Source of the DNA: Chitinophaga lutea
GTDB taxonomy: Bacteria > Bacteroidota > Bacteroidia > Chitinophagales > Chitinophagaceae
Assembly: GCF_003813775.1 (NCBI RefSeq)
Contig: NZ_RPDH01000001.1
Coordinates: 372,001 to 436,000, forward strand
Direction: 5' to 3'
Length of the DNA: 64,000 nucleotides
The notes beneath the pieces were generated by a model that had not been told where the DNA came from, did no database searches, and saw nothing but the letters and a program-made list of their open reading frames with translations. Of this stretch, positions 19,260 to 37,476 are shown piece after piece; within the stretch, counting starts at the first letter, position 1; each line of letters starts with the position of its first letter. A program made the position numbers and the translations under genes.

Positions 19260-19289
19260 CTCATATACTACCCCCACCTGAAGCACACC

Positions 19290-20588
19290 CTACTTCGTTC
19301 CCACCGACACAGACTTGAAGACATTATTAACAAGCCTGTTCATTAAACGGACATTCCTCGTTATGACAATCGCTTCCGCTTTCAGGCCGGATTTATACGC
19401 AAGGGGGACATTATTACTCGTGACCAAGCCGTTATCCAACCGTACCGTAGCCACAAACCCGCTGTCTGTCGACACCCGGGAAACATAATTGATCGTTCCC
19501 TGCAAAAAACCGACTTCCTGAAATGGATAGGCCGCAACTCGCAACTGCACTTGCTGCCCCGTGTCCACTTTGCCAAAATTCGCCTGGGGAAGGTTTACTT
19601 CCGCAAAATAGTGACTATGACCGGGGTCAATATAGCCTATCATCTTTCCCTGCTGCAAAAACTGCTGCTCCTGCAAAGGCACATTCAATACAACCTCTCC
19701 GTCAATCGGCGCCACAATTACGTATTTCCTTTTCCATTCGTCGACAACATTCTGCAATGACTGCACAGCTTGCAAAAAAAGTGCTTTCTGTTGCGCCAGG
19801 TCATGCTTCAACTGGTCAATTTCCTTCAGCTTTTCCCGCTTCTGCGTGATATTGGAAAGGATGGCGCTGCTCAATTGCGAAACGGTCATTTTTTTGTTGA
19901 CAAATTTGCTTTTCTCGTTCCTGAATGCTTCCCTGGCAATCACCTTTTCCTCAAAAAGGTTCCTGTTCATGTTAAAACTCTCTTCCGCAAGCAGCATATC
20001 CTGCTCCGTCAGCTCAAACTGTCGCTGGATAACCTCTTTGGCCTGCTCCAATGTTTCAATATCCTGCCGGAGCATTTCCATCTTTCTGCCATAAAAACCG
20101 TTCACCATATAATCGTCAAACTGCTGCAAGGCGCCGATGAACTCCCGGTATGCGTCCCGAGCCTCACCCAGGTTGCCGTAACCGCCGGAAAAGCATCCCG
20201 CTGCTTCCTTAAAGCGGTTGGCATTAAGCAAAACAATACACTTGTCGATCATTGATGACAGCCGCAGCACATCCTGATGACTGGCCGTGCTTTCCATCAG
20301 GCCCAATAGCTCGTTTTTCACCACCTGCTTCCTATTCCCGGCCAGCAGTTTCGTAAGCCGCCCCTCATGCCGTATAATCAATTCTTTTGGCGCATTGGTG
20401 GCTGACAACAGGGCTTTCCCCTCGATGATATCGGGATACTTGACAAACCAGGTACTGGATATCAGAATGACCAGGATACCTAAAAAAAGATATAACGCCG
20501 ATTTCTCCAGAAACCCCGGCTTTCTGCTGATGATCTCCTGCGCCATTTCCGACCGCTGGCTAAAATGATATTTAATTTCTTCCGCCAT
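19290..20588 (-). CDS. HlyD family secretion protein (membrane fusion adaptor)
   Basis: A 432-residue periplasmic adaptor that links an inner-membrane exporter to an outer-membrane channel. Residues about 27-48 form a single membrane anchor (SALYLFLGILVILISSTWFV). A split biotinyl/lipoyl domain flanks a long coiled coil (about 85-270, including LRQDIETLEQAKEVIQRQFE). APIDGEVVL marks the return of the lipoyl half-motif, and a beta-barrel with YISRV-like strands follows. It starts 14 bp after the ABC exporter stop and ends the island operon. No TolC-like gene is in the window, so a general outer-membrane channel encoded elsewhere is presumably used. The bacteriocin-export role is inferred from the C39 partner. 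Confidence 0.92.
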   Translation of the reverse strand: MAEEIKYHFSQRSEMAQEIISRKPGFLEKSALYLFLGILVILISSTWFVKYPDIIEGKALLSATNAPKELIIRHEGRLTKLLAGNRKQVVKNELLGLMESTASHQDVLRLSSMIDKCIVLLNANRFKEAAGCFSGGYGNLGEARDAYREFIGALQQFDDYMVNGFYGRKMEMLRQDIETLEQAKEVIQRQFELTEQDMLLAEESFNMNRNLFEEKVIAREAFRNEKSKFVNKKMTVSQLSSAILSNITQKREKLKEIDQLKHDLAQQKALFLQAVQSLQNVVDEWKRKYVIVAPIDGEVVLNVPLQEQQFLQQGKMIGYIDPGHSHYFAEVNLPQANFGKVDTGQQVQLRVAAYPFQEVGFLQGTINYVSRVSTDSGFVATVRLDNGLVTSNNVPLAYKSGLKAEAIVITRNVRLMNRLVNNVFKSVSVGTK

Positions 20589-20602
20589 ATTCAGTTCATT
20601 TA

Positions 20603-22789
20603 TTACATACCCAATTCCAGCTGATTCTTTACCAGTTCATAATACTTCCCCCGGATCCCGGTCAATGAAGCGTGTGTGCCTTCTTCCACGACCTTCCCGT
20701 TATCCAGCACCACGATCTTATCGGCGTTCTTCACCGTACTGAGCCTGTGCGCCACTACCACAACGGTTTTTCCATTAAAGAACCGTTCCAGGTTTTCCAC
20801 AATTATCTTCTCGTTATTCGCATCGAGCGCGTTCGTTGCCTCATCGAAGAATAGAAACTGGGGATTTTTATATACGGCCCGCGCTATCAGCAGGCGCTGC
20901 CGCTGTCCCTGGCTTACGCCCACACCTTCCGCACCCAGGAGCGTATCGAGGCCGTTGGGCAGCGACTCGATGAACGAAAGGATATTGGCAATCCTGCAGC
21001 TCCTGATCAGTCTGTCGTGATCCATATATTCATCGCTGACGGCGATATTCCGCGCGATCGTATCATTAAAAATATAGCCGTCCTGCAGCACGGCGCCGCA
21101 TTGCTTCCGCCAGTAAGAGGGACTGATGTACTTAAAATTGTTTTCCCCCACCTTAACGTCCCCCTGGTATTGCTGGTATACTTTCAACAGCAGCTTTATC
21201 AACGTAGTTTTACCGCTGCCGCTGGCCCCCACAATCGCCGTCACTTTCCCGGCCGGAATGGACAGGTTTATTTTTTCCAGTACCGGGTCGTTTCCGGCAG
21301 ACGGGTAGGTAAATGACAGATCCCTGATCTGCACATCATGCTTTTCCGGCAGGTGCTGGAGAAAGGTTTTATCGACGGGCTCCTCATCTTCCATATTGTG
21401 CACTTCGTTCAGCCGCTCCAGGCTTATTTTGGCATCCTGCACATTCTGAAACAGCCCTATAAACTGGTGCACCGGACCGCTTAGCTGCCCTATGATATAC
21501 TGGATAGCCAGCATGGCGCCGAATGTCAGCTGCCCCTGCACCACCAGTTGCGCTACCGTAAAGCTGATCACGATATCTTTCCCCTGGTTGATGAACAACG
21601 CCCCGGCGGATTGCCATTGCGCGTAATTGAGATTCCTGTAATTGAGCTTGAATATCTTCGCCTGTATATTTTCCCACTCCCACCTTTTCAGGTGCTCGGA
21701 GTTATTCAGCCTGATTTCCTGCATACCCTGGATGAGCTGCAGCGTGGCATTGTTCTCTTTGGCGGAAACATGAAAGGTTTCATAATTGATTTTCCTCCTG
21801 ATGTGCATAAACAGCCGGATCCACAAAAAATACACGACGCTCCCGACGGAAAAAATCAGGAACAATGGAACGCTGTACATCATCAGGATGACGCCGTAAA
21901 TCAGGAAATTGAAAATGGAAAAGATGGTCGTTAACGTTTGCCCCGTCAAAAAAGACTGGATCTGTTTGTTGTCGCCGATTCGCTGGATAGTGTCGCCGGT
22001 ATGATGGGAATCGAAATAAGCCAGCGGCAGCCTAGTCAGCTTAATCCAGAAATCGGACAGAATGGATATATTGACCGTATTGGATACCCGTAACTGCAGG
22101 CGGCTTCTGATAAACTCGATGACGGTGGCGCTGAAGGTCAATGTGAGCTGGGCAATGAGCACGATGGTGATATACTGCATATTACGCGTATTGATCCCCG
22201 TGTCGACCAGGCTCTGCGTAAGAAAGGGAAGCACCAGCTGCAACAGCAACCCGATCAGCAGGGAAATAAACACCTGCACTAATTGCCCCCGGCTGCTTTT
22301 CAGATACCTGGTGATGATGCTCCAGTCGAGCCGGGTCTCTTTTTCGCCCGATTCGTTGTAAAAAGTGGCGGAGGGCTCCAGCAACAGGGCAGTGCCTACT
22401 TTTTCTTCACCGGCATTCGTGTTGGACAGCCAATACGTCTGGAACTCTCTTTTGGAATAAGTCATCACCCCCCTGGCGGGATCGGCAATCCTGACCCGCC
22501 GGTTGTTCATGGCCACCAATACCACAAAGTGATTCTGGCGCCAGTGGAGTATGGAAGGAGGCGCAACGGTCAGCAGCTTGTCGTAGCTGATCTGTACGCC
22601 CCTGGTCCTGAACCCCAGCTTTTCGGCGGTTTCGCTGATCCCCAGCATGGAAACGCCCTGCTTGCTGAAGCCGGCTTTCTGTCGTATGGTATCTGTATTA
22701 TAGTGCCTGCCATAATGCCTCGCCACCATCCGTAGACAGGTCGGGCCGCAATCCATGGCGTTCAGCTGCTTGTAAAATGGAAAACTCAT
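20603..22789 (-). CDS. C39 peptidase-containing ABC exporter (PCAT, bacteriocin type)
   Basis: A 728-residue exporter that cuts GG leaders and translocates the released peptide. The N-terminal C39 cysteine peptidase shows Cys14 in AMDCGPTC, His87 in WRQNHFVV and Asp103 in IADPA, so the triad is intact. Membrane helices cover about 160-430. The ATPase domain has Walker A GASGSGKTT, an unusual signature VSQGQRQR (in place of LSGGQ), Walker B FLFFDEATNALD and the H-loop VVAHRLS. A GTG at 22819 is in frame, but the ATG at 22789 gives the family start MSFPFYKQLNAMDCGP. It is encoded just before the HlyD adaptor. The two GG-leader peptides in the same island are its obvious substrates. Confidence 0.95.
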   Translation of the reverse strand: MSFPFYKQLNAMDCGPTCLRMVARHYGRHYNTDTIRQKAGFSKQGVSMLGISETAEKLGFRTRGVQISYDKLLTVAPPSILHWRQNHFVVLVAMNNRRVRIADPARGVMTYSKREFQTYWLSNTNAGEEKVGTALLLEPSATFYNESGEKETRLDWSIITRYLKSSRGQLVQVFISLLIGLLLQLVLPFLTQSLVDTGINTRNMQYITIVLIAQLTLTFSATVIEFIRSRLQLRVSNTVNISILSDFWIKLTRLPLAYFDSHHTGDTIQRIGDNKQIQSFLTGQTLTTIFSIFNFLIYGVILMMYSVPLFLIFSVGSVVYFLWIRLFMHIRRKINYETFHVSAKENNATLQLIQGMQEIRLNNSEHLKRWEWENIQAKIFKLNYRNLNYAQWQSAGALFINQGKDIVISFTVAQLVVQGQLTFGAMLAIQYIIGQLSGPVHQFIGLFQNVQDAKISLERLNEVHNMEDEEPVDKTFLQHLPEKHDVQIRDLSFTYPSAGNDPVLEKINLSIPAGKVTAIVGASGSGKTTLIKLLLKVYQQYQGDVKVGENNFKYISPSYWRKQCGAVLQDGYIFNDTIARNIAVSDEYMDHDRLIRSCRIANILSFIESLPNGLDTLLGAEGVGVSQGQRQRLLIARAVYKNPQFLFFDEATNALDANNEKIIVENLERFFNGKTVVVVAHRLSTVKNADKIVVLDNGKVVEEGTHASLTGIRGKYYELVKNQLELGM

Positions 22790-22819
22790 TCTTTCATCCG
22801 GTTTAAATTTCCTAAACAC

Positions 22820-23689
22820 TTACAATAAACACTCCTTTAGCACGTCTTTTTCATTCACCGCCATCCAAATGATGTTCAGCGGGTTCAATTCGGTTAAAAA
22901 CCGCTTCTTCTGCTGCCGTATATATTTAATCCTCCTGGAATACGCACCATCCTGTATCATCTTCAGCATGGTATCAACCGAGCCTGACATTTCTTTTACA
23001 TCGACCCTGACGAAAGCCCGTTCATCCACAAACCGCTCCAAATCCAGGCAGCCATCGTAGAAACACAGGGTTTCGGCTACAATCGGATCCACGATCTTTT
23101 CTGTAAAATATCCCAGCTCAAAAGAGTTCTCGCTCATGAAATGATAATGGTACTTCCAAAGCCCGTCATATTTCTGCTCCAGCTCTCCCCTGTAATTTCT
23201 CAGGCGTTCAAAAAAAACATTCCCATATTGCTTTCCCCATATGTCGAGGCCGCTTTCAATCAGCTGGTCCAGCATATCCACCATCCTCAACCGGTAGAAA
23301 TGCCCTTCCATGAAGTTCAGGTCGGTCGTAACACAGGAAAGCAGCCTGCTTTTCCGTATCCGCTGCCCGTTGCCCCCATTGGCGGCGGCGCCCGATATGA
23401 CAGCTGGCCAGAAAGGCAACGGGAGATACATCGCTTCGGTACGGGCACAAAGGTTATGATGCCGGTTTGATGAAGCCGGCGGCTCCGTTAGAAATGCAAT
23501 GGCCTTCCGGCTGTCGTACGCCCCCATACTTTTGTGCGGCCTGGTCAGTATGATCAGGCGGTCGTAACTGTCATCTGCTACGAACGTTATATTCTTCCAC
23601 TGCAGCACGCCCCTTCCAAACAATCTCAGGGTATCGAGATAGTTGGCATCGGTTTCCCAAAAACAGGTAACGCGGACTTTTATCATCAT
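22820..23689 (-). CDS. GT10-like (fucosyltransferase-fold) glycosyltransferase
   Basis: A 289-residue protein resembling alpha-1,3/4-fucosyltransferases (GT10). The C-terminal donor motif is recognisable in the SENSFELGYFTEKIVDP block followed by CFYDG, aligning with the GT10 pattern F-E-N-S...Y-V-T-E-K-x-x-D-A. The N-terminal half (AIAFLTEPP) fits the acceptor lobe. The ABC exporter frame lies directly after it. Membership of the glycosyltransferase run and the operon position suggest it decorates the peptide product. A role in cell-surface glycans cannot be excluded. The sugar donor is unknown. Confidence 0.75.
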   Translation of the reverse strand: MMIKVRVTCFWETDANYLDTLRLFGRGVLQWKNITFVADDSYDRLIILTRPHKSMGAYDSRKAIAFLTEPPASSNRHHNLCARTEAMYLPLPFWPAVISGAAANGGNGQRIRKSRLLSCVTTDLNFMEGHFYRLRMVDMLDQLIESGLDIWGKQYGNVFFERLRNYRGELEQKYDGLWKYHYHFMSENSFELGYFTEKIVDPIVAETLCFYDGCLDLERFVDERAFVRVDVKEMSGSVDTMLKMIQDGAYSRRIKYIRQQKKRFLTELNPLNIIWMAVNEKDVLKECLL

Positions 23690-23713
23690 ATTTCTTTTGT
23701 TTTTATTGCCGGG

Positions 23714-24985
23714 CTATCTGGCAACATCGTGCTGGTCAAATGATCTTCCCACAAATTCGCTGCCGGTCCGCGATGTCGGAAAATCAACGCCATCCCCGAA
23801 AAGGTTGTAGCTGTCGTGTATCACGGCGTATCCCTTCACCTGCGGATAAATGACCTGTGCCAGGAAAAGCTGATCGGTCCCTTTCAAACACTTGTACTGG
23901 TACTGATCGATCAGTTCCCGTATTCCCTCCATATTCCGGCAGCCCCACATGCCCCCCATGATCAGCGAGGTATGGTGCGGATGGTCCCGCATGATATGAA
24001 AAAACTTCTCCGTTTGAAGCCAGCGTTCCACCGCGTCGACCTCTCTTCCCGACAGCCTGGAGTCAGCATCTCTGCAAATCATCACGTCCGCGTCTTCCGC
24101 CGCGTAAAACCGCCAGAACAAACCGGCAAATTCATCCGACGGCTCCATCAATATCATTTCGCAATCGGACTGGCCCAGCATCCTGATGGACGGGAGCGGG
24201 GAAGTCGCATCCACGTAAAAACGGCAAGTCCATCCGGGGTATAAAACACCGGCCAGTTCGATGTTCTTAAATGCTCCCTCCCAATACATCGGATCGCTTC
24301 CCCATAATGAAAATGAAATAACTTTCTTCAGACTGCTTTTGAAAACATTCGCCATATCTTCAGTCACCAGAACATAATCCGGCGATTTCACCAGCTCCCC
24401 GATAAGGCTGCTGTCTTTTGTCCACAGCGACGTTCTGTTTATCTTGCAGCCACAATAGTCCACCCGCCTGTAATCCCTGATATTCACATCCGACCAGTGA
24501 AAACCATCGTGCTCCGTATCGTGGGCCACAATTACCGGGCAGTCATTATCTATGAAATACTGCAGTATTTCATGCCTGGCCGTGGGAAATCCATCAATAA
24601 ACACCATGTCGCATTTGCCGAATTCCAGTTTTTTCCAGTCATGCGCTCCCGGAGACTTTATAAATTTCCATTTATGATTGCCCTGGTACAGCTTGCCGAG
24701 CTTATCCGCCCATGCATTGTTCACTTCCTCCGGCACATGCTGCCCCTGCTCAACGGTAGTTACAGCCCCGCACTTTCCCAGGAGCAATGAAGTGGACCAA
24801 TATCCGCCACCGAACTCAATCACGCTTTCAACTCCCGCAATATTAATAACATCATTCAAGGTGGTGATATGCGTGCTGCATTGATAGGAATAATCGTCAT
24901 ATGACTTTATGCCCTCCGCTATCTTTTTCAGGTCGTCAAATGATTGAGCAGACCAATCGGCGGCCCAATCTTCTTTATGTTGCAT
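23714..24985 (-). CDS. Two-domain protein: methyltransferase-like plus glycosyltransferase-like
   Basis: A 423-residue fusion. Residues about 45-200 look like a class I methyltransferase or Rossmann-fold domain, with the motif VIEFGGGYWST, an acidic VEQG strand and a DMVFIDGFPTARH block. The second half (about 215-410) is glycosyltransferase-like: SLWGSDPMYWEG, WTCRFYVDATSP, then RDADSRLSGREV (DXD-type metal site) and HIMRDHPHHTSLIMGGMWGCR. I recognise the second module from capsule and LPS transferases but cannot name the sugar. A longer start at 25030 overlaps the previous gene by 29 bp; the ATG at 24985, 17 bp after the preceding stop, is preferred. Confidence 0.7.
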   Translation of the reverse strand: MQHKEDWAADWSAQSFDDLKKIAEGIKSYDDYSYQCSTHITTLNDVINIAGVESVIEFGGGYWSTSLLLGKCGAVTTVEQGQHVPEEVNNAWADKLGKLYQGNHKWKFIKSPGAHDWKKLEFGKCDMVFIDGFPTARHEILQYFIDNDCPVIVAHDTEHDGFHWSDVNIRDYRRVDYCGCKINRTSLWTKDSSLIGELVKSPDYVLVTEDMANVFKSSLKKVISFSLWGSDPMYWEGAFKNIELAGVLYPGWTCRFYVDATSPLPSIRMLGQSDCEMILMEPSDEFAGLFWRFYAAEDADVMICRDADSRLSGREVDAVERWLQTEKFFHIMRDHPHHTSLIMGGMWGCRNMEGIRELIDQYQYKCLKGTDQLFLAQVIYPQVKGYAVIHDSYNLFGDGVDFPTSRTGSEFVGRSFDQHDVAR

Positions 24986-25001
24986 GTTTAACGTTTTACT
25001 A

Positions 25002-25658
25002 TCATACTTTGAGATAACGGTCGTACACATCTTTGTACTTCCGCAGGCGATCCGCCGTTTTGGTGAAATACGATTCTATCAGTTCCCTTTCCCGATTGTT
25101 ATTTTCGGTTACATCCGAATAGCCAAAATCGGTCTGGACGGACACAAAGGGATACAACATCATTTTATGGCTGGTTATGACGGAAAACATCCCATCGGCG
25201 GTGTCTGTGCTTTCAAATACGGCATGCAGTATTTTCGGGAATATCGGTTTGTAGAGAATCAGAAACTGCGTACAGTAAAAGGAATCCATCCAATACCTGT
25301 TCGCCGTGAGCGGAACGGCATGATTGAACCCTCCAACTCCTCCATTCAGCAGCTCTGCTCCCTGTTCGTTTGCTTCGATAATATTTTCAAACAGGTATGT
25401 TTTGTTGTAAAAAGACGTGAACGTATGGTCATCTTCGCACAACACAATAACATCGTCATCATTCTCAACGGCCATCTTTACTACCCGCAGGATACTGTTC
25501 CACAATGCCATACGGCCGTTTTCTCCGGTACATGCCTCCAGTACGCGCAGATCGAACTCCGTTTTCCCCCTGAACTGCGCCATCGTATGTTTATACCTGT
25601 CGGTACGTTCTTTCAGATTGATGACATATGTGGGTAAAACAATGTGGTCAAAGTCCAT
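25002..25658 (-). CDS. GT25-like glycosyltransferase, intact catalytic motif
   Basis: A 218-residue transferase of the LPS-type GT25 (LOS glycosyltransferase) family. It begins with the signature YVINLKERTDRY and has the metal-binding VIVLCEDDHTF motif near residue 77. A conserved module end follows (MFSVITSHKMMLYPFVS, then FGYSDVTENN). It is shorter than usual GT25 proteins. It belongs to a set of four related modules in the island; this one and the N-half of the 28536-29822 protein keep EDDH, the others do not. The start is 3 bp from the preceding stop, so translation is coupled. Confidence 0.85.
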   Translation of the reverse strand: MDFDHIVLPTYVINLKERTDRYKHTMAQFRGKTEFDLRVLEACTGENGRMALWNSILRVVKMAVENDDDVIVLCEDDHTFTSFYNKTYLFENIIEANEQGAELLNGGVGGFNHAVPLTANRYWMDSFYCTQFLILYKPIFPKILHAVFESTDTADGMFSVITSHKMMLYPFVSVQTDFGYSDVTENNNRERELIESYFTKTADRLRKYKDVYDRYLKV

Positions 25659-25661
25659 GAT

Positions 25662-26330
25662 TCATTTATTGAGCCTGGTTAATGAATAAAACTTTTTCAC
25701 TTGCTGAAGTAAATCCAGCTGATCGGCTGGATCTGCATAGAACCGGCCTTGGGCCGGACCGGATGTTCGTTCCGTAACACCCGACACGAATGGATACAGC
25801 AACAGTTTGTTTGCTGCGACTGAAGACAACAGGTGTTCCGCCGGTCGCTTGTGGTGTTCCGTGCCAACACGCAAGATCGTATCATAGAATCGCCTGAAAA
25901 AGGCCACAAACTGCATTCCCTGGAATTTATCCACCCAAAACAGGTTTTCATCCACCTGAACGGCGGATTCGAACCAATTAACGGCTCCCAGCAAAATATC
26001 CGCTCCGTTCTTTTCCGCCGCACGAATGCATGCATCCAGATATCCAGCGGAGTAGTCTACCGAAAAGCGATGAGCGGAACCGCAAATAAAAAAAAGGTCG
26101 GTATCGCGCTCTTTGGCTTTTAGCGTCAGTTCCCGAAGTACCGGCCAGTGAAGCGATTCTTTTCCAGGCTCGTGGAAGCTTAGCGAAAATTCTTCCCGTC
26201 CATCAAACTCCGCCGCCGCAAACCACCCCGGCCGCCCCTCAAACCCTGCCGCCGACGGAGAGGAAAACAGGGTGACATTCCAGGCATTCGTCACCCGGCG
26301 CTCATGAGCGTTTTGAGCTGTTGCTTCCAT
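25662..26330 (-). CDS. GT25-like module with degenerate metal site
   Basis: A 222-residue homologue of the neighbouring GT25-like proteins. The second half keeps the family blocks ADILLGAVNWFESAVQVDENLFWVDKF-type sequence, QFVAFFRRFYDTIL and ANKLLLYPFVSG, but the catalytic EDDH is replaced by FICGSAHRF. It also lacks the N-terminal INLK-RTDR signature. It may therefore be inactive and act as an acceptor-binding or partner subunit to the intact enzyme next to it. It overlaps the upstream gene by 40 bp and stops 3 bp before the next one starts. Confidence 0.7.
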   Translation of the reverse strand: MEATAQNAHERRVTNAWNVTLFSSPSAAGFEGRPGWFAAAEFDGREEFSLSFHEPGKESLHWPVLRELTLKAKERDTDLFFICGSAHRFSVDYSAGYLDACIRAAEKNGADILLGAVNWFESAVQVDENLFWVDKFQGMQFVAFFRRFYDTILRVGTEHHKRPAEHLLSSVAANKLLLYPFVSGVTERTSGPAQGRFYADPADQLDLLQQVKKFYSLTRLNK

Positions 26331-27361: not shown

Positions 27362-27388
27362 ATTTGAACAGCGTATTTACAATCCAAC

Positions 27389-28558: not shown

Positions 28559-29822
28559 TTACAGTGCTATGCCGTTCATATCGTTTCCTGATATCAGCCA
28601 ATCGCTTTTCCGTATCCGGCTCCGAAGCAGAAACGAAGGGGCAAACCATCATCTTATTGCTGCTGAAGCCGGACAAAACGCCTTCTTCCGCAGATATCTC
28701 ACCATCCGGCATCATCATCAATTTCGAAATCCCGCTCCTGAAAAAAACAATAAAATTCGGTTCCCTGACTGCTCCTACCCAAAACCTGGTTGCGGAAATA
28801 GGCACAGACAGCCCGAAATCATTTGCGCCGCCAAAAAGGACGTCCGCGCCAAGGGCATGCGCGTCAAGGATATTCTTCATCAGGTAGCGGAATGAATAGG
28901 CTGGCGTAAACCGGTGCAGCCCGTCGCAAATGATGACAACGTCTTCATCGTTCGCCACGGCATCCGCCAAAATGTGCTTCAGCACGGGTAAAGATTGCCA
29001 ATGACTCTTCCCCGTACTCACGCCGGTTTCCGCAACTACCGGTAAAAAACAGGGCTTGTCTGAAAAATGCGCCTGAATATATTTTTCAATGTTATCGCAG
29101 CCGTTGTTCACCACATACGTCGTAATACAGCAGCCGTCGTCCACATGCTCCCCCTGCCTGTTATCCCCGCTATGCCCGGCATAAAATCGCTGTACCTCGC
29201 TTACGGCCAGCATGTTCTGCATGCTTTTGCCAAACAGTTCCGTCACCCTGCCCAACACGGCGTTCCTTGACGTAACATCGGAATAGCCGAATTCCTTTTG
29301 TGTAGAGATAAATGGATGAATCACATACTTACTGATAGCCAGGGAGCTAATTTTATGGTCCGCCACATCTGTATCACTGAAATCTGCAGTCAAAATCGCG
29401 GCATAGAATTTTTTAAAGATGATGACAAACTGCAGCCCGGTGAACTTCTCCATCCAGTAAATATGTCTATCCACCTGCACGGCACTGTTCAACCAGCTCA
29501 CGCCTCCGCTCAATACATCGGCATTATTTGCCATTGCGATTGTTATGCTATCGAAAAGCAAATCCTTGTTGTAATCCGAGGTAAACTGGTGATCATCCTC
29601 GCATATCAATACGAATTCTTCCCGCACCGCATATTCATTCAGGATATATTGTATGGTTTGCCAAAGCCCCTTTGCCCCTACTGCGTGCTCAAAGGCATCG
29701 ACTATCGTACAATCAAATTCCGGCGCCTGGCCGAACTCATGCTGTATATGAGCCCTGCGGTCGGTCCGCCGCTTCAGACTAATGACAAAAGTTTTAATCC
29801 TGTTTGTGTTCATAGCCGGCAT
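28536..29822 (-). CDS. Tandem GT25-like glycosyltransferase (one intact and one degenerate module)
   Basis: A 428-residue protein built from two homologous GT25-like modules. Module 1 (about 1-205) starts IKTFVISLKRRTDRR and keeps VLICEDDHQF and the FGYSDVTSRN end. Module 2 (about 225-420) has the same layout but with IICDGLHRF in place of EDDH. Both contain the ADVL-GG...FW/YW...QF(V/I)xFFK/R block. It looks like an internal duplication with one copy losing catalysis. It is the first of six consecutive transferase genes, 55 bp after the TlpA-like gene. In-frame ATGs occur at residues 1 and 4; the first is given. Confidence 0.8.
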   Translation of the reverse strand: MPAMNTNRIKTFVISLKRRTDRRAHIQHEFGQAPEFDCTIVDAFEHAVGAKGLWQTIQYILNEYAVREEFVLICEDDHQFTSDYNKDLLFDSITIAMANNADVLSGGVSWLNSAVQVDRHIYWMEKFTGLQFVIIFKKFYAAILTADFSDTDVADHKISSLAISKYVIHPFISTQKEFGYSDVTSRNAVLGRVTELFGKSMQNMLAVSEVQRFYAGHSGDNRQGEHVDDGCCITTYVVNNGCDNIEKYIQAHFSDKPCFLPVVAETGVSTGKSHWQSLPVLKHILADAVANDEDVVIICDGLHRFTPAYSFRYLMKNILDAHALGADVLFGGANDFGLSVPISATRFWVGAVREPNFIVFFRSGISKLMMMPDGEISAEEGVLSGFSSNKMMVCPFVSASEPDTEKRLADIRKRYERHSTVNGNDRLS

Positions 29823-29877
29823 ACATTATACCTCGTTATACATCCGGCCGCCCGGGTCGGCAGCTTTTCCCATTTTT

Positions 29878-30753
29878 CTATTTTGTGAACTTTTTCCTCA
29901 AATAGGGAACATCCGGGTTATACTTAACCAGGTTCAGATCCTTATCTACCAGCAGCTTCAACGGAATACCGTTAATCTGCAACAGTTTGGCGATGGGTGA
30001 TTCCCAGCCTTTCAGATCGGCAACATTCGTCCAGGGATACCTTTCCCGAGCAATTACGTTTTTCCATTTACCTGCATCTACATCGAGGGAAACGCCTATA
30101 ACGCGTACAACGGACGTATCCATTGCGCCGTACAGTTCAAGCAATCCCCTGTTCTCCATAATACAGGGGCCGCACCAGGATGCCCAAAAATCGATCAGTA
30201 TATATGGATTCCTGACTTCCCCGATTCTAAAAGCATTCCCGTTCACAGACTTAAATTCGTACTCAAGCAAACGTGCGATCTTCGGTTTTTCCAAGGTGTT
30301 TTCCGCCCGGTTTAAATTCCGGAACACCTGCTCTCCAAGCGGAGTTTTCCGAACCGATTCCGGGTATGTGTTGAAAAGCGCCTGAAGCCGGCCGTGTTCA
30401 AGTCTGCTGTCCTGGGTGAGATAAAGCAAATGCCGGAAGTTGTGCATATCCTTCGCGTTTCTCTCCAGGTATTTAATCCTGCAGCGATTCAGGTCAAATC
30501 CGTACTCATGGTATACCGAATCAACATTGACGCCGGCCCCGGTTTCCTTCAGCCGTTTCAGTTCCTGCAGCCGTTCGGAGAAATAGGCGCCGATCGACTC
30601 CATCGACATAAACCGGTAGTTGGTGTCGACTTTCAGTTTATCATACCTGTCCGCTCCGCCTGCCGTTGCGGGAGAACCTTGCTTCTTTGTCTGGGCACTG
30701 TGATCTTGGCCTGTAGCAGCTAGAAGCAGGAGCAAAAGGAACAGCCCTCTCAT
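29878..30753 (-). CDS. TlpA-like thioredoxin-fold protein
   Basis: A 291-residue exported thiol-disulfide protein. The frame is longer upstream, but the ATG at 30753 gives a clean signal peptide (RGLFLLLLLLAATGQ). The N-terminal half is helical; the C-terminal half is a TlpA/ResA-type thioredoxin domain with FWASWCGPC as the active site and a cis-Pro in INGIPLKLLVDKD. It would act in the periplasm, reducing or isomerising disulfides. It lies between precursor 1 and the glycosyltransferases, so action on the Cys-rich peptides is the obvious inference. Confidence 0.88.
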   Translation of the reverse strand: MRGLFLLLLLLAATGQDHSAQTKKQGSPATAGGADRYDKLKVDTNYRFMSMESIGAYFSERLQELKRLKETGAGVNVDSVYHEYGFDLNRCRIKYLERNAKDMHNFRHLLYLTQDSRLEHGRLQALFNTYPESVRKTPLGEQVFRNLNRAENTLEKPKIARLLEYEFKSVNGNAFRIGEVRNPYILIDFWASWCGPCIMENRGLLELYGAMDTSVVRVIGVSLDVDAGKWKNVIARERYPWTNVADLKGWESPIAKLLQINGIPLKLLVDKDLNLVKYNPDVPYLRKKFTK

Positions 30754-30797
30754 ATTGACATTTTTTTTATAAATGATCGGATAGCAGCAAGGAATAA

Positions 30798-30844
30798 AAG
30801 GCTGCCGCCAGGCCCACATGTGATGCAACCTTTTTGGCAGCCTT
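30798..30844 (-). terminator. Partial terminator after precursor 1
   Basis: A 9-bp perfect stem (AAGGCTGCC / GGCAGCCTT) with a 29-nt loop, followed on the minus strand by a TTTTATT tail. It lies 13 bp after the precursor stop. It would let the precursor be made in excess of the downstream genes. Confidence 0.6.
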
Positions 30845-30856
30845 CTATATCAAAAA

Positions 30857-31135
30857 TCAATTCATAATACATCCACTGCTACAATCTCCCCACCAGCCAT
30901 AAGCGCTTTCGCAGCCGGAGTAGATTTGCCCGCAGACGGCGTCGGCACTACCGGTCGGATTTGAACGATAGTAACAAACCTGCGACCATTCCCCGCAAGC
31001 TTTGCCATACCCCGTACAATGGACACACAGGCCGGTACCGCTGCTTCCGTCACCACCCAGTACACTTTGCAGTTGGGCCCTGGTAAGCACTTCGCTGGCG
31101 CCTAATTCCAAAGCTTTAAGTTTTAACTTTTTCAT
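30857..31135 (-). CDS. GG-leader Cys-rich secreted peptide precursor 1
   Basis: A 92-residue precursor. Residues 1-28 are a double-glycine leader (MKKLKLKALELGASEVLT, ending QSVLGG) of the Bacteroidetes natural-product-precursor type (TIGR04149-like). Cleavage after Gly28 would free a 64-residue core starting DGSSGT. The core has eight Cys (C-x-x-C, then singles spread to the SSGC end), many Gly, Ser and Tyr and few charges, which fits a compact disulfide-linked peptide. The frame is open upstream to 31216, but the ATG at 31135 gives a leader that aligns with precursor 2 from its first residue. Ser, Thr and Cys in the core offer possible glycosylation sites. Confidence 0.88.
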   Translation of the reverse strand: MKKLKLKALELGASEVLTRAQLQSVLGGDGSSGTGLCVHCTGYGKACGEWSQVCYYRSNPTGSADAVCGQIYSGCESAYGWWGDCSSGCIMN

Positions 31136-31244
31136 TCCTGATTTTTTTGTTGGTGAATACAATTTGATTTTCTGGCTTGCCAGGCAAGTTTTCGCCGTCT
31201 GCATTGCATTGTACACTGCAACAGCGTTCCGGCGGTTCCGGGCT

Positions 31245-31270
31245 CTGATACCGTAGTACTCCGGTATCAG
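31245..31270 (-). promoter_or_regulatory. Hairpin upstream of precursor 1
   Basis: A perfect 9-bp inverted repeat (CTGATACCG / CGGTATCAG) with an 8-nt loop, about 110 bp before the precursor start. No U run follows, so it is more likely a 5'-UTR structure or operator than a terminator. A second, shorter hairpin (ACCCTG/CAGGGT) lies at about 31330-31350. Confidence 0.4.
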
Positions 31271-31399
31271 CAGGCATCCCGTTCTTTTCCCGCTGCTGCC
31301 TAAACAGCAAGAAAATATCCTATCTAAGCACCCTGCCGTCAGTCAGGGTTGAGTATGCAGTACCGGGTATATACAGCTGGAAATCTACATGCAAAGTTC

Positions 31400-32830
31400 T
31401 CATCGTTTGATCAGATCATCCAGAACGGGCGTAAGGTTGCTGTCACCAGGCCCCATCGCATCGTCCGAAAAAACATTCCCTGCTTTATCCACTATCATAT
31501 ACCTCGGAATCGAAGCGATTTTAAACTTCTTTGCAAGAAGAGAAACAAAATCACCTTCTCCCCAGTAGGAGAATGTTCGGATTTGCTGGTTTTCCGCGGC
31601 CGATTTCCATTTGTCAAAATCTTCGTCGAGCGAGATATAAATAAAATCAACGGGTTTGCCGGCGTACTTTCTCTTCAGCTTCAAGGATGCCGGCATTGCG
31701 GCGAGGCAGGGCACACACCAGCTCGCCCAAAAGTCGATATATAACACCCGGTTGCGATGCTGTTTCAGGAAGTCGTTCCAGGAACGGAAAGACGAATCCG
31801 GCGAAAATAACTTTTGCCCGGAAAGGTTTCCTGCCAGTTCCCGTTTAAAGCGCATTTTTATCTGCCTGCCGATCTGCTCCCTGAAGTCTTCGTCATCAAT
31901 TTCCCTGCGTAGATTTTCCGCCTCCGTCTGGCTCACCTGCCTGTTGGCAATCAGTAATTCCAGGATATCCGACTGCATATAGCTACGAACCTTCCCCGTA
32001 AAGTGCAGCTTTGCGCTGTCGTATATCTGGCGTAGCTGCCCGGCGTTCAGGCCGGAGTAAAATAAAAACGGTCTCGTTGCGTTTATCTCCTTTTCCGCAG
32101 ATGTTCTGGCTACCTGTACGAGTGCATCGGTAAAAAAAGCATGATCCAGGCAGGTATCGCAATTGAATGTTTTCCGGTAGCCGCTCAGGGAATCACGATA
32201 AAACGACCTGATTTTGTTCCTATCATACCCGGGATAAAACAAATAGAGCTTTTCATAGATACCGGCGTAATAAAACGCCTTGCCTGCATAATCCACAAAA
32301 CCGGCCGACACCTTGTGTTTTGCCTGATATGCATGCAGGTAACCGAGCCTCTCCTGGTGCTTTTTATTAATCAGGCTATCTCTTTCCTTCAAATCAACTT
32401 TTTCATTGCGGATATAGGTTTTATTGCCAAGGTGCCTCACTGCACCGATATCCCGGGACAGCCGGCTAAAAAAAGCCAGTTCATTATTCCTGACGGGATC
32501 GGCGGTTTTCATTTCTATTGTTCCGGTTCTGTCTTTTGCGACAACTATACTATCTCCAGGCCGGAGGTAATACCCCGTCTGGTTTTCGTCCGGCTGCATA
32601 ATGTAAACAGGAATGCGGGACTTTATACGGAAGGGAACATCCTTTGCTAAAAAGCTGGGGTGGCTGCTTATCCCGTCTTTATAATAAAAACCGAAAGCGG
32701 CATCCAGTTTGGAAACCAGCGTAATAACCGAATCTGCCGTTATCGGCGCCGCCTTTCCAATATTATTTTCCGCGCAGCAAAAAAAACTCCCCCCGGCAAC
32801 CATAACAAAAAACAATCTCGACATAAACAT
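31400..32830 (-). CDS. TlpA-like thioredoxin-fold protein with long N-terminal domain
   Basis: A 476-residue exported protein. The N-terminus (RLFFVMVAGGSFFCC) is a signal with Cys18/Cys19, so probably a lipoprotein. Residues about 30-340 form a helical domain common in Bacteroidota TlpA-like proteins, with one CDTC pair near residue 224. The thioredoxin domain is C-terminal, with WCVPC at 371-375 and a cis-Pro in IASIPRYMIVDK. It lies between the two precursors, separated from precursor 2 by a 10-bp hairpin. It probably reduces or reshuffles disulfides in the periplasm together with the VKOR-DsbA fusion. Confidence 0.87.
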   Translation of the reverse strand: MFMSRLFFVMVAGGSFFCCAENNIGKAAPITADSVITLVSKLDAAFGFYYKDGISSHPSFLAKDVPFRIKSRIPVYIMQPDENQTGYYLRPGDSIVVAKDRTGTIEMKTADPVRNNELAFFSRLSRDIGAVRHLGNKTYIRNEKVDLKERDSLINKKHQERLGYLHAYQAKHKVSAGFVDYAGKAFYYAGIYEKLYLFYPGYDRNKIRSFYRDSLSGYRKTFNCDTCLDHAFFTDALVQVARTSAEKEINATRPFLFYSGLNAGQLRQIYDSAKLHFTGKVRSYMQSDILELLIANRQVSQTEAENLRREIDDEDFREQIGRQIKMRFKRELAGNLSGQKLFSPDSSFRSWNDFLKQHRNRVLYIDFWASWCVPCLAAMPASLKLKRKYAGKPVDFIYISLDEDFDKWKSAAENQQIRTFSYWGEGDFVSLLAKKFKIASIPRYMIVDKAGNVFSDDAMGPGDSNLTPVLDDLIKR

Positions 32831-32836
32831 CTTTTA

Positions 32837-32860
32837 AGCGGCCAGGTATTCCTGGCCGCT
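32837..32860 (-). terminator. Strong hairpin between precursor 2 and the TlpA-like gene
   Basis: A perfect 10-bp stem (AGCGGCCAGG / CCTGGCCGCT) with a 4-nt loop fills the short gap between the two genes. There is no good U run, so it may protect the precursor mRNA 3' end or reduce read-through rather than end all transcription. Confidence 0.55.
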
Positions 32861-32867
32861 GTATTGA

Positions 32868-33140
32868 CTATAAGCAACCTGTAGACAGGTAGGCACAGTT
32901 CGGATGTGCTGAATTCCATGAAGATTGGCAGGAATCGCAACACCAGTTATCCCAGCCGCCGTTCTCCTGAAAATCCTGCGCCATTGTTTTCGACAGGCCA
33001 CATTGCCAGCCGTCCCAGCCTGAGCTGTGGGCACAGCAGGTCCCGGTGCTGCCATCGCCGCCCAATACATTCTTCAATTGTGCGCTCGTTAATACTTCAG
33101 TTGCGCCCAGTTCAAGCGCCTGCAATTTTAATTTTTTCAT
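32868..33140 (-). CDS. GG-leader Cys-rich secreted peptide precursor 2
   Basis: A 90-residue precursor whose 28-residue leader (MKKLKLQALELGATEVLT, ending KNVLGG) differs from precursor 1 at only a few positions. Cleavage after the GG would release a 62-residue core beginning DGSTGT, with eight Cys (a CC pair, one single, the CCDSC cluster and two near the end) and five Trp. Both cores share the DGS-S/T-GT start, then diverge completely. It has its own candidate promoter and a terminator-like hairpin in its leader region. This is a probable substrate of the C39 exporter, the RRE-bearing transferase and the oxidative folding proteins. Confidence 0.9.
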   Translation of the reverse strand: MKKLKLQALELGATEVLTSAQLKNVLGGDGSTGTCCAHSSGWDGWQCGLSKTMAQDFQENGGWDNWCCDSCQSSWNSAHPNCAYLSTGCL

Positions 33141-33160
33141 TTTTCGTCAATTGTTGGATT

Positions 33161-33198
33161 AAAAAACCTCCTTCTTCAACATCCACTGCCGAAGAAGG
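33161..33198 (-). terminator. Terminator-like hairpin in the 5' region of precursor 2
   Basis: On the minus strand an 8-bp stem (CCTTCTTC / GAAGAAGG, 13-nt loop) is followed by AGGTTTTTTAA. It lies between the candidate promoter at 33244-33251 and the precursor start, so it could be an attenuator, or the terminator of the preceding HTH gene. Confidence 0.55.
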
Positions 33199-33243
33199 TC
33201 ATACTGCCATTACTCGAGTTCAAGCAGTATAAATTTTCAACAA

Positions 33244-33251
33244 CAAAACTA
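33244..33251 (-). promoter_or_regulatory. Candidate Bacteroidota -7 box for precursor 2
   Basis: The minus strand reads TAGTTTTG, a perfect TAnnTTTG element, about 100 bp upstream of the precursor 2 start. No clear TTTG box is seen at the expected distance upstream, so this is a weak call. Confidence 0.35.
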
Positions 33252-33286
33252 AAGTCACCTGTTGCACTATACGTGCATCGGCTGCG

Positions 33287-33619
33287 CTATATGCCCGGGC
33301 AAAGCTGGAAGACATTGACCTCTGAAAAGCAGGCTGTTTCCACGTTTCCGATCAGGGCTACCTGTTCCCTGGAAAGTACCTGATCACTTGTCACAAACAG
33401 CTGCTTCACCATTCCTCCGTCTTCGTCATAATAATATGTACCCCGTGCCCTATCGAATTTTATCGGAAACCCCAGTTCTTTCATCTCATATAAAACGGAC
33501 GCCATGGCCCTCTTGCAGAGCCCGTTCTTGTCTGCAAAGCTTTTCAGGTCGCCGGTGGCCTTTCTCTTTATCATGAAGTCGACATACTTCAAACGGTTAA
33601 TATGTTTCAGGAGCGCCAT
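33287..33619 (-). CDS. Small HTH protein, putative regulator of the island
   Basis: A 110-residue protein with an N-terminal winged-helix-like region (about 5-70): RLKYVDFMIKRKATGDLKSF, then CKRAMASVLYEMKELGFPIKFDRARGTYYY. This resembles the HTH_11/DeoR-like domain at the start of WYL-type regulators: the recognition helix plus a wing containing Tyr-Tyr-Asp. The C-terminal 40 residues are unassigned. It starts 10 bp after the VKOR-DsbA fusion and precedes precursor 2. Small HTH proteins of this type are common next to GG-leader peptides in Bacteroidota, so local regulation is likely. Confidence 0.72.
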   Translation of the reverse strand: MALLKHINRLKYVDFMIKRKATGDLKSFADKNGLCKRAMASVLYEMKELGFPIKFDRARGTYYYDEDGGMVKQLFVTSDQVLSREQVALIGNVETACFSEVNVFQLCPGI

Positions 33620-33629
33620 AATCCCCGTA

Positions 33630-35279
33630 TTAATGGTTTGTCAGAAAATGTTTCAGATCTCCGGCGGAATAGATATCCGGCAATTGGTAACCATTGACAA
33701 AGAAAGTAGGCGTAAAGCTAATCCCTGTTTCTTCACACCACCGGCGCATTGCATCAATCTTGTGTTCCTGTTTCGATTCGCCACTTATCGGGTGCTTCGC
33801 GGCAAATTTCTCATAGTCCTTGATATCCGCCAGGTACCAGTCGTCCAGGCCTTTCTTGATGACCTCTTCATTGCCTTTGCTTTGTTCCGATATGGCCAGC
33901 AAGTGTTTTACAGGAGCGGCCGCTGTATCTCCTTCCCTGTTACTCGCCGTGAAAATTATCTGCAATTGCACATTGGGATTATTTTCCAGCAATTCTTCTA
34001 TAGGAGCGTGCGCTCTGGCACACGGTCCGCAATAGGGATTACACACCTTTATGATTTTGTGGGGCGCTGCAGGGTTACCCAAAACGATGCCCAATCCATC
34101 CGGCGGAACAGCCATCCGTTTCTGTTTAACAAGCAAGGCGTCAAATATCTGCGGGTTATGCTTTAACCGCTGAAGGTTATCTTTATTCTCTTTGCTCTCC
34201 TTGGCCTTTTTAAAAACAGGCAACAGTGCGTTCACCGCCATGAAAGGAGCCCCGTAAGCCAACAGCACCAGGGGAATCCATCCGGGACCTATTTCAGCGA
34301 CGGGAAATGCCCCTGGCCATCCCGATGCTATAAATATGACCGACTGCAATACCAGTATCGCCTGCGCACAAAGACACAACACGCACCATTGCCGGGCAAT
34401 CCGCCATTGGTAATAGAGTGAGAAAAAAACATACGGCAGGGCCAACATGCTCAACCAGCCTAAAACTGCCAGCGCCTGTATATTCTGAAGACCTCCAAAC
34501 AATAATAGCAGCAGGTTCCCCGCAAAATAGCTGAAACCGATAACGCTCCAGCTGACGCCGCCTATTGTGGCCGCGCCGGACTGCAAAATTGCCCCGCAGT
34601 TTGTTTTTTTACCGATACCGCATATCTGCTGCAAAGCCGGGTTATGCTGATCGAGCTCATACCACAACAATAAAAACCCAACCGACACGCCCCCCAGCGC
34701 CAGCAAGCCATAGCCGAGGGAAGGCCATACGGCAGCTCCATGCTGCATAAAACCGGTTATGCCCGCAATACACAATACAAGGGGAAGGAACAACATTACG
34801 AGCCAATACAGCCCTCTTTTGCGCTTTTCTTCTTTTGCCTTTTTTACAAAATCCTTTTCCCCGGCAAACGCTCCCGCCTCCGCCAGCAGCGCTACGCCTT
34901 TATATCGTGCTAGAAAATTGTCTGCTTTGCTGACGTTCCACTTATAATTGGTCGGCTCATAGTAATGAATGTTGTCCCCTTCCATTTTCTTCACTATCGA
35001 GAAGTAATCCCTCCCGCTTTTCATACCCTTCAGCTGAACAATAAAGGGCGTAGGTAATGCAAACAACTTATCTCCGTCAAACCTCGCGGCCAGGTTATCA
35101 ACGCCAAACCGGTTCAGCACGTCACTGATACTTAACAGGCTATTGTAATTCGGGTGCTCTTCCAGTTCTTTCGTCAGTGTGGTGGCAGTTACCGGAACGT
35201 TTAGTTCCCGCAACAACAACATGGCTATTTCAGGGCCGTTGCTTTTGGGCTCAAATAGTTTTTTCAGGAATGAGTTCAT
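33630..35279 (-). CDS. C39-like / VKOR / DsbA-like thioredoxin fusion
   Basis: A 549-residue disulfide-forming membrane protein. Residues 1-130 resemble a C39 peptidase fold but hold no Cys, so this part is catalytically dead and probably binds leader or peptide. Residues about 157-350 form a vitamin-K-epoxide-reductase domain with several membrane helices and the redox Cys pairs C220/C228 and C299-x-x-C302 (CVLC). Residues about 395-549 are a DsbA/thioredoxin-like domain with CGPC at 417-420 (in CNPYCGPC). Such fusions oxidise substrate thiols and pass electrons to quinone. It is the first gene of the island and should form the disulfides of the Cys-rich peptides. Confidence 0.9.
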   Translation of the reverse strand: MNSFLKKLFEPKSNGPEIAMLLLRELNVPVTATTLTKELEEHPNYNSLLSISDVLNRFGVDNLAARFDGDKLFALPTPFIVQLKGMKSGRDYFSIVKKMEGDNIHYYEPTNYKWNVSKADNFLARYKGVALLAEAGAFAGEKDFVKKAKEEKRKRGLYWLVMLFLPLVLCIAGITGFMQHGAAVWPSLGYGLLALGGVSVGFLLLWYELDQHNPALQQICGIGKKTNCGAILQSGAATIGGVSWSVIGFSYFAGNLLLLLFGGLQNIQALAVLGWLSMLALPYVFFSLYYQWRIARQWCVLCLCAQAILVLQSVIFIASGWPGAFPVAEIGPGWIPLVLLAYGAPFMAVNALLPVFKKAKESKENKDNLQRLKHNPQIFDALLVKQKRMAVPPDGLGIVLGNPAAPHKIIKVCNPYCGPCARAHAPIEELLENNPNVQLQIIFTASNREGDTAAAPVKHLLAISEQSKGNEEVIKKGLDDWYLADIKDYEKFAAKHPISGESKQEHKIDAMRRWCEETGISFTPTFFVNGYQLPDIYSAGDLKHFLTNH

Positions 35280-35894
35280 TTTAAGGGCTTTTGTTTAAAA
35301 ACTCGACGTGGTTTATTTTGATCTTTGTCTCAAGTTCGCGGCATGAAATGATCTGGGGAAAAATAGTTGACCTTGCACTGTTTCCGACATTCACATCCTG
35401 TAAACATCCTGTTGCCCGACCCTGCTTTTACAGCGAGGCGCAACGGTACACGCATGCCAAACCTGCGCGACCGCGAGGCCACAGCTACATTTTACCTGGA
35501 AACGGAAAAATAAATGCGGGCTGTACGCGTATCCACAATTACATTAAACATGGCATAACATTCCATATCAGTAAGCACAACCCATTGCAATTGCATTATC
35601 CGGTGGTTGTCCTCCGGCGCCTGCAATACTGTGTCAATGAGACAATGTTACCTATTGTCTATTACCTTATTTACTTCCAGCACATTTCCTGAAAAAGGTG
35701 AAATCCGGGATTTTGAAGCGGCATTCATGTTGTTAACATCAGTTTATCAGGGTTCAAATTAAGGCTCGGGTTCGGGTTCGATCTTCAGCTTGTTGTTCCA
35801 AATCTAGTTGAGCATCCCGAAAAAAATAGCCACTATTTTTGCAAACATCTACGTTATTTTGACATTGCTGACATATAAATGGCGGATTCCGAAA
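35280..35894. other. Island leader region without a supported gene
   Basis: About 615 bp between the first island gene and leuA. A TGCAATTGCA palindrome lies at 35585-35594. An inverted repeat AGACAAT-7 nt-ATTGTCT lies at 35640-35660 and could be an operator for the HTH protein. The minus strand also reads TAGATTTG (35799-35806), a -7-like box, without a clear upstream partner. A + strand frame of 133 codons here has no support. Confidence 0.45.
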
Positions 35895-35895
35895 C

Positions 35896-35936
35896 AAAAA
35901 AGCGCCGTCCCGGCATCCCGGGAACAGCGCTTTATA
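35896..35936 (-). terminator. leuA terminator
   Basis: A composite stem (AAGCGC/GCGCTT with inner TCCCGG/CCGGGA) is followed on the minus strand by a run of six T. A diverged version follows the leuA fragment at 19098-19123. Confidence 0.8.
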
Positions 35937-37458: not shown

Positions 37459-37476
37459 GATATATGAATTAATTAG

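Follow-up and report, generated by a model that had tools for sequence, protein, structure and literature searches.

A GT25-associated island in Chitinophaga lutea that probably encodes glycosylated, disulfide-rich secreted peptides

Gene content of the island

The island described here lies on the minus strand (19290-35279) of a window, that is, the whole 64,000-nucleotide stretch of DNA analysed, from the 6.6 Mb genome of Chitinophaga lutea (contig NZ_RPDH01000001.1). It comprises two GG-leader peptides with eight Cys residues each, a C39 exporter, an HlyD adaptor, three thiol-oxidoreductases, and seven transferase-like genes. All of these parts are present and intact, and Pfam bears out the exporter, adaptor, and thiol-protein genes that the initial annotation of this DNA had described. 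The island is probably a locus for ribosomally synthesized and post-translationally modified peptides (RiPPs) whose products would be secreted, disulfide-bonded, and glycosylated; glycosylation would be initiated by a two-domain GT25 protein, GT25c, at the Ser of a short linker, and the C39 exporter would carry the peptides out. Two links bear this reading: GT25c relatives lie close to precursors of the same peptide class, and the Gly-Ser linker of such precursors tracks the presence of GT25.

Precursor peptide 1 (90 aa; 32868..33140) and precursor peptide 2 (30857..31135), recognised from the sequence and alignment A2, are encoded, like all island features given below, on the minus strand. 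Both begin with the leader MKKLKLxALELGAxEVLTxAQLxxVLGG, followed by a DGS linker and the eight-Cys core; the start of precursor 2 is most likely the methionine of MKKLKL at 31135, replacing 31216. Precursor 1 matches TIGR04149 with 20.0 bits, under the 25-bit cut-off, and precursor 2 gives no match. Three CX6C spacings occur in precursor 2 (a number reached by 2.7% of shuffles) and one in precursor 1; two or more are found in only 2 of the 24 class cores tested, precursor 2 being one of the two. The class cores are also rich in Ser and Thr. With two duplicates and a truncated frame set aside, the GT25-linked loci yield 40 distinct class cores, and every one has an even number of Cys, between 4 and 10, which fits pairing in disulfides.

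The TRANSFERASES of the island amount to seven transferase-like genes rather than the six first counted, and one of them encodes two GT25 domains. This protein, GT25c (28536..29822), is the sole window protein above a Pfam transferase cut-off (Glyco_transf_25, 29.3 bits, cut-off 24); in alignment A3, 9 of 10 members match GT25 at E <= 0.01. Its N-terminal domain carries an EDDH motif. The solved chains nearest to the GT25 profile, both weak matches, are 'putative glycosyltransferase R655' (E 0.0037) and a procollagen galactosyltransferase (E ~0.5). The single-domain, GT25-like protein GT25a (25002..25658) is 41% identical to the N-terminal half of GT25c and scores 22.6 bits against the cut-off of 24. 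GT25b (25662..26330), also single-domain, has no Pfam match alone and is assigned by homology to GT25c (32%, E 3e-25) and to GT25a; taken together in the genome search, GT25b and GT25a looked like another copy of the two-domain protein, split by a single stop. A GT10-like (fucosyltransferase family) protein (22820..23689) matches GT10 below the cut-off (E 0.0014), and all nine members of its alignment, the window's included, match GT10 at E <= 0.1 (best 1e-7). Three of the seven match no transferase family. These are GTx (26291..27361), an orphan transferase-like protein with no convincing Pfam match; sGT (23714..24331), a small orphan transferase-like domain with no Pfam match and a CRDxDSR motif in five of five sequences; and a transferase-like protein with a C-terminal PqqD/RRE-like domain (27389..28558). 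A methyltransferase (MT)-like domain (24332..25030; Methyltransf_24 only, very weak, E 0.14) is fused N-terminally to sGT; the fusion occurs again in L104 (loci and genomes compared are numbered L and G) and is absent from the four other genomes that hold the island. None of the seven transferases matches PHROGs or, in Pfam and NCBIfam, GT2, SunS-type, or peptide S-glycosyltransferase models, and solved-structure searches with the GTx, sGT, and RRE-fused alignments gave no credible match.

The RRE-like domain, which had been advanced as support for peptide modification, occupies the C-terminal 70 residues of its protein (~27389-27601). It matches Pfam PqqD below the cut-off (E 0.013), and 2 of the 7 alignment members match at E <= 1. 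Compared with a profile of nine PqqD proteins from one and the same bacterial family as the window, it reached E 1e-4 at a probability of 58% (other segments, E 0.19-0.5), and its five closest members alone reached E 0.002 at 13%; a PqqD-type family search of whole genomes did not recover the gene in the window's genome. The domain is thus weakly supported, though suggestive.

The PCAT protein (20603..22819) combines a C39 peptidase (Pfam E 6e-33) with ABC exporter domains; Cys, His, and Asp are kept in the C39 alignment, so that the triad is intact, as originally stated. Its matches to TIGR03796 and TIGR01193 are below their cut-offs, and it is expected to remove the GG leader and export the peptide. 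The HlyD-type periplasmic adaptor (19290..20588) matches HlyD_3 (1e-11) and, below its cut-off, TIGR01843 (E 1e-21). Three thiol-disulfide proteins had been named, one a VKOR-DsbA fusion, and Pfam agrees, adding an N-terminal C39-like domain to the fusion (33630..35279; VKOR 7e-14, Thioredoxin_4 1e-10, Peptidase_C39 3e-8; CxxC motifs), for which a role in disulfide formation is proposed. This C39-like domain has no Cys or His at the catalytic columns in any of nine VKOR proteins compared, and in the L146 copy both residues stand one column away from them; it may be a leader-binding remnant. The other two are TlpA/ResA-like thioredoxin-type (Trx) proteins with the motifs CVPC (31400..32830; Thioredoxin_8 1e-14) and CGPC (29878..30828; Thioredoxin_8 3e-12). 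The small helix-turn-helix (HTH) protein that had been listed is present (33287..33619), and its label is weak (HTH_43 only, E 0.17); homologues 45-67% identical lie beside precursors in L094, L095, L102, L107, L146, and L147 and occur in G688, and the protein is a possible local regulator. Among the island proteins scanned with Pfam and NCBIfam, no radical SAM, LanB, LanM, or LanC match was found, in agreement with the initial annotation.

Links of GT25 genes to precursors and to a Gly-Ser linker

A GT25c profile built from ten proteins gave 34 matches in 21 of 79 genus genomes, corresponding to 28 loci (two with single-domain or split copies only). A class precursor lies within 15 kb in 22 of the 28. 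With 34 precursor loci in 79 genomes of ~7 Mb, a rough estimate puts the number of such neighbours expected by chance among the 28 far below one. Four of the remaining six GT25 loci are other RiPP-type clusters. Three of them, with LanB (L103 and L108) or LanC (L111) by Pfam, have GT25c relatives beside lanthipeptide-type genes and C39 exporters, a hint that Chitinophaga makes glycosylated lanthipeptides; in L099, the neighbours are a C39 exporter and a GG precursor that is divergent, lacks Cys, and is rich in GSG. Conversely, a GT25c match occurs within 20 kb in 21 of the 34 precursor loci obtained at E <= 1e-10, and a GT25-type gene is present in every class locus examined with a recognised transferase, except L146 and the short L005 contig. 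Outside the genus few relatives turn up: of 395 phylum genomes, only the window's own and G497 gave a match. In G497, a split GT25 pair lies close to a distant VKOR gene (23%) and to a peptide that is rich in Cys and has an AG leader. A plasmid search and a viral scan with GT25c found none.

The companions of GT25c vary. Further TRANSFERASES beside it, by Pfam, are GT8 and GT11 (L095), Branch (GT14-type) and GT92 (L096), GT11 (L099), GT2 (L058), and Branch (L052). Several loci are without GTx and the RRE-fused protein: L058 and L110 carry GT10-like and GT25a genes, L094 carries GT10-like, GT25a, GT25b, and sGT genes, and L104 carries a GT10-like gene and the MT-sGT fusion. Such variation fits a glycan begun by a common enzyme and completed differently in each species, in a step order that is itself conjectural.

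The linker between leader and core follows the same division. Of 22 GT25-linked loci (23 were given to the test, and one yielded no class precursor), 20 have one or more precursors in which Gly-Ser follows the leader and precedes the first Cys; where the genome has no GT25c, the figure is 1 of 10 loci (Fisher p 1.8e-5, a value that, like those below, overstates independence because the loci share ancestry). The difference persists with the near copies G726 and G746 removed (19/21 vs 1/9, p 6e-5), against only the seven controls of examined surroundings (20/22 vs 1/7, p 4e-4), and in linked loci outside the motif-spotting set with near copy G726 removed (9/11 vs 1/10, p 0.0019). Transferases in control loci were sought by similarity to those of the window only, and in L146 also by Pfam. 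On this basis L147-L150 contain a precursor and VKOR, nothing like the window's transferases or exporter within 20 kb, and no Gly-Ser; L059, which likewise has no Gly-Ser, combines exporter, VKOR, and Trx genes with nothing that resembles the transferases of the window. In L146 (3942-15107), the same exporter, adaptor, VKOR, HTH, and Trx proteins are found, with Glyco_transf_7C and LanC-like proteins in place of GT25, and its three precursors carry Thr-rich linkers (VNTTT, VNVTT, VANVTT) free of Gly-Ser. L146 was dropped as a plain transferase-free control on account of its Glyco_transf_7C neighbour. The linker seems to change with the enzyme, the L146 part of this statement coming from one locus. 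Long Gly-Ser repeats occur in two GT25-linked precursors. Precursor-like proteins with long (GS)n repeats were seen at L100:11296-11883, in this case with no GG and with a long C-terminal extension, and at L095:3047-3310.

Because GT25 genes are linked to precursors and Gly-Ser tracks GT25, GT25c is likely to be the core peptide glycosyltransferase and the linker Ser its likely site. The claim that the transferases act on the peptides, made before any comparison, thus gains comparative support and is probably correct. It is possible, albeit rather unlikely, that the Gly-Ser linker serves only as a flexible spacer and that GT25 acts on Ser or Thr inside the core: Gly-Ser is in general a common flexible linker and the cores offer many such residues, whereas other linkers are found in 9 of 10 same-leader loci without GT25.

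Several observations weigh against glycosylation of these peptides by GT25c, in addition to the shared ancestry of the linker loci. No known transferase family is matched by sGT, by GTx, or by the RRE-fused protein in its N-terminal part. The C-terminal domain of GT25c has a degenerate DGLH motif. In G748, two GT25 loci are without class precursor and C39 exporter alike (in one of them, L105, an ABC protein matches the exporter outside its C39 part only), and some members of the family may do other work. Thirteen of the 34 precursor loci are not GT25-linked, eight in genomes with GT25c elsewhere and five in genomes without it. The even Cys number is not specific to GT25-linked loci, being found in 14 of 15 control precursors. 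The Gly-Ser rule was formed after the first precursors had been viewed, and the leader model was trained on GT25-linked precursors. Finally, Gly-Ser spans only the cut site in GT25-linked L107, and only the presumed cut site in the G497 precursor; it lies in the C-terminal tail of GT25-linked L098, with none before the first Cys, and it precedes the first Cys in the GT25-free locus L151.

A further alternative assigns the core modification to the RRE-fused protein, with GT25c only extending the glycan or modifying something else; we regard this as doubtful. RRE domains are generally known to bind leaders, and in L005, a 7.7 kb contig, a distant relative of the RRE-fused protein lies beside a Trx gene, a VKOR gene, and a GG peptide with HGS after GG, with no GT25 gene there. 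Close relatives, however, were found only in the five island genomes, whereas GT25-type genes accompany the transferase-bearing class loci with the two exceptions given above. A genome-contig scan with the RRE-fused protein for close relatives found none, a two-row alignment led to Pedobacter steynii only, and database searches with the protein or its alignment returned two proteins each (8000 candidates scored), so that its rarity is an impression.

Recurrence of the island and relatives of the GTx/sGT pair

A search for the same gene set in Chitinophagaceae, as the initial annotation had proposed, found the core set (precursors, VKOR, Trx, GT25c, RRE-fused protein, GTx, sGT, exporter, and adaptor) in three more Chitinophaga genomes; it is also present in P. 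steynii DSM 19110. Because the core set recurs in four other genomes, the island is more than a chance assembly. In the three Chitinophaga genomes, the products (Trx proteins left out) are 38-84% identical to those of the window, and the cores differ; in P. steynii, VKOR is 34% and the adaptor 29% identical. Gene order is near-identical among the Chitinophaga loci, and that of P. steynii differs; its sGT has no MT fusion, and genes for a GT2 protein and an FkbM methyltransferase are found immediately upstream. Of the four other island genomes, three have the GT10-like gene, two have GT25a and GT25b as separate genes, and one has the HTH gene. The window's set of seven transferases is the largest seen and is common to G696 and G688.

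GTx occurs in 4 of 79 genus genomes, the window's included, and in 1 of 201 genomes of the P. steynii family, that of P. steynii itself; among 395 phylum and 294 family genomes drawn, it was found in no genome beyond the window's. Its close relatives (62-68% identity) belong to the same kind of locus, whereas distant ones (31-46%) were found on contigs of uncultured viruses, in 36 loci (L161-L196) that include some near copies. The sGT gene is also encoded in 32 of the 36; the two genes overlap or are separated by a gap within 25 bases in 18, with a 4-base overlap in 11. Sugar-nucleotide, methyltransferase-like, PhoH-like, and recombination genes were recognised by eye in these viral stretches. 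In the cultured cyanophage S-SRM01, an sGT relative lies in a glycan cluster among annotated GT25, FkbM, and fucosyltransferase genes. Some distant GTx relatives in the protein database bear the names of bacterial metagenome-assembled genomes (Terracidiphilus, Acidocella). In a quick GTx tree, the five island proteins fall in one 17-row clade with a support of 100, the other 12 rows being database proteins; viral rows are scattered over several other branches, and one 36-row branch has no viral rows. The tree is rooted at its midpoint, so the direction of transfer is not given. The distribution of GTx and sGT is compatible with exchange between phages and bacteria; a plasmid search and an annotated-phage search with GTx found none. 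Two sGT matches, H1 and H2, in Acinetobacter phage MD-2021a were given no weight, the H1 stretch examined holding bacterial housekeeping genes. The record of this phage, CAKLQH020000005.1, contains recN, coaE, and gspE at 165620-178306 and may be mislabelled.

These viral relatives bear on the possibility that the transferases make a surface glycan (capsule, lipopolysaccharide [LPS], or S-layer sugar) and that a locus exporting unmodified disulfide peptides adjoins them through shared regulation or by coincidence. The name of the Pfam GT25 family refers to LPS biosynthesis, the two G748 loci lack a class precursor, and the distant GTx and sGT relatives occur in viral sugar-gene clusters and, as far as seen, not beside RiPP precursors. 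Nevertheless, this explanation is quite improbable: the peptide linker tracks GT25 presence, and the island proteins scanned gave no match to a family of glycan polymerases, flippases, or initiating phosphoglycosyltransferases. The initial annotation had held that transferase homologues consistently found in LPS or capsule loci without precursors would speak against peptide glycosylation. GT25c relatives are near class precursors (22 of 28 loci) or in other RiPP-type clusters (four), with two in neither; for GTx the picture is divided, the close relatives lying in the same kind of locus and the distant ones in viral contigs.

The surroundings of the island are as follows. Its GC content is 47-51%, compared with 49-58% elsewhere in the window except at 14-18 kb (38-44%). 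It adjoins leuA-like and leuB-like genes (35953-38658; named by eye from translations). A hairpin scan placed a terminator-like hairpin of 14 pairs with a T tail 3' of the last gene (19103..19136, minus strand); the scan of the region found 27 such sites against 18.6 expected from shuffles. The 5' leader of precursor 1 (33141..33286, minus strand) is strongly structured (folding z-score -4.05, a stability reached by none of 200 shuffles). At 33198-33170, a short way upstream of the precursor start, it forms a terminator-like hairpin and may be an attenuator. The Bacteroidota-type promoter pattern had no match within the island. The low-GC stretch adjoining the island contains an orphan RHS repeat-associated core fragment (17167-18129; TIGR03696, E 2.5e-13), and the window also holds a cobalamin riboswitch (42561-42777) and a SAM riboswitch (57696-57810).

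Proposed pathway and comparison with known systems

From the computed features (gene set, recurrence, and the links of GT25 to precursors and to Gly-Ser) we infer peptide glycosylation, its site, the order of steps, the sugars, and the role of the product. The GG leader would guide cytoplasmic transferases to the precursor, and the two-domain GT25c would add the first sugar to the Ser of the Gly-Ser linker directly after the leader (residue 31 in precursor 1). GT25a, GT25b, the GT10-like protein, sGT, GTx, and the RRE-fused protein would then extend or cap the glycan; the presence of several transferases per locus suggests a longer one. The C39 domain would cleave after GG while the exporter and the HlyD adaptor move the peptide out, and in the periplasm the VKOR-DsbA protein and the two Trx proteins would form and proofread the disulfides. 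The product would probably be a weapon or a signal between bacteria.

A broader proposal, for and against which the balance is about even, is that these loci form a separate RiPP class of Chitinophaga and Pedobacter: a tandem GT25 protein would start the glycan on the linker Ser, locus-specific transferases (GT2, GT8, GT10, GT11, GT14, GT92, sGT/GTx) would extend it, and the window's sGT/GTx pair would be one that also occurs in sugar clusters of uncultured phages, some of them large, and was perhaps exchanged with them. If this is true, one peptide scaffold carries a species-specific oligosaccharide; if glycosylation is as proposed, Gram-negative bacteria make disulfide-rich peptides with longer, variable glycans. 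The GT25-type locus would represent a little-explored kind of natural product built by a sugar-adding family better known from other jobs, and a possible source of peptide glycosyltransferases that accept a short Gly-Ser tag. It also offers a clear test: one precursor, one GT25 gene, and one predicted Ser. Among the papers listed in literature searches, with most subscription journals outside them, none was on a GT25-type RiPP or on GT25 as a handle for finding RiPPs.

Among systems of the same host group are class I lanthipeptides of Chitinophaga, of the pinensin type. They share the genus with the island, and a GT25c relative occurs in some lanthipeptide-type loci, but the island has no LanB or LanC match. 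The TIGR04149 GG-leader precursors of Bacteroidota have a leader similar to that of precursor 1, below the cut-off; those precursors are radical SAM-modified, whereas the island lacks a radical SAM match and precursor 2 a TIGR04149 match. In the accessible portion of a mining study of Bacteroidales, GlyS-type genes are described with radical SAM and LanC genes, with transferases in some clusters (PMC10352776).

The CAZy family GT25 includes bacterial LPS transferases (Lex2B, LpsB) and collagen galactosyltransferases, and shares with GT25c the Pfam GT25 domain and the EDD-type motif. The collagen enzymes are, in the available text of one source, GT25 enzymes that act on protein, have bacterial LPS relatives, and are thought to be two-lobed (PMC3244457). 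GT25c differs in having tandem domains and a link to RiPP precursors, and its sequence similarity to the collagen enzymes is weak. RREs fused to PF00535 transferases are a bioinformatic finding of the RRE-Finder update, as given in the accessible part of that paper (PMC12710340), whereas the transferase part of the island's RRE-fused protein matches no family.

A further comparison is with glycocins such as sublancin, glycocin F, and thermoglycocin, of which few have been characterised. Their transferase is of the GT2 type (SunS-like), their peptides contain two CX6C segments with nested disulfides, and the characterised members carry one or two single sugars. Glycocin clusters beyond Firmicutes have reportedly been described by Singh and Rao, and an overlap with the GT25-type locus is possible. 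As far as the available text of the sources goes, ten glycocins had been experimentally identified by 2022, in Bacillota (PMC9576775), and their loci combine a precursor and a transferase (ThgS, for example) with a C39 exporter and two thioredoxin-like genes (PMC12457901). A leader precursor, a C39 exporter, thioredoxin-like proteins, a glycosyltransferase, and a disulfide-rich product are thus common to both, but the island is GT25-based, with several transferases, a VKOR-DsbA fusion, and a Bacteroidota host, and its class has 4-10 Cys, in even number, and no conserved CX6C pairs. That the island is a true glycocin locus, with SunS-type S- or O-glycosylation of one Cys or Ser in a helix-loop-helix peptide, is very improbable: the shared parts and the three CX6C spacings of precursor 2 speak for it, and the lack of a GT2 or SunS-type match in the seven transferases, the rarity of paired CX6C (2 of 24 cores), the several transferases, and the even Cys counts, which leave no obvious free Cys for S-glycosylation, speak against it. 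Because no GT2/SunS-type enzyme is matched, paired CX6C is not a class feature, and several transferases are present, glycocin membership, as the initial annotation had implied it, is not supported by these comparisons. The fitting label should be 'glycosylated RiPP of a GT25 type', for a locus that is glycocin-like in its working, not shown to be a glycocin, and built around a different family of transferases.

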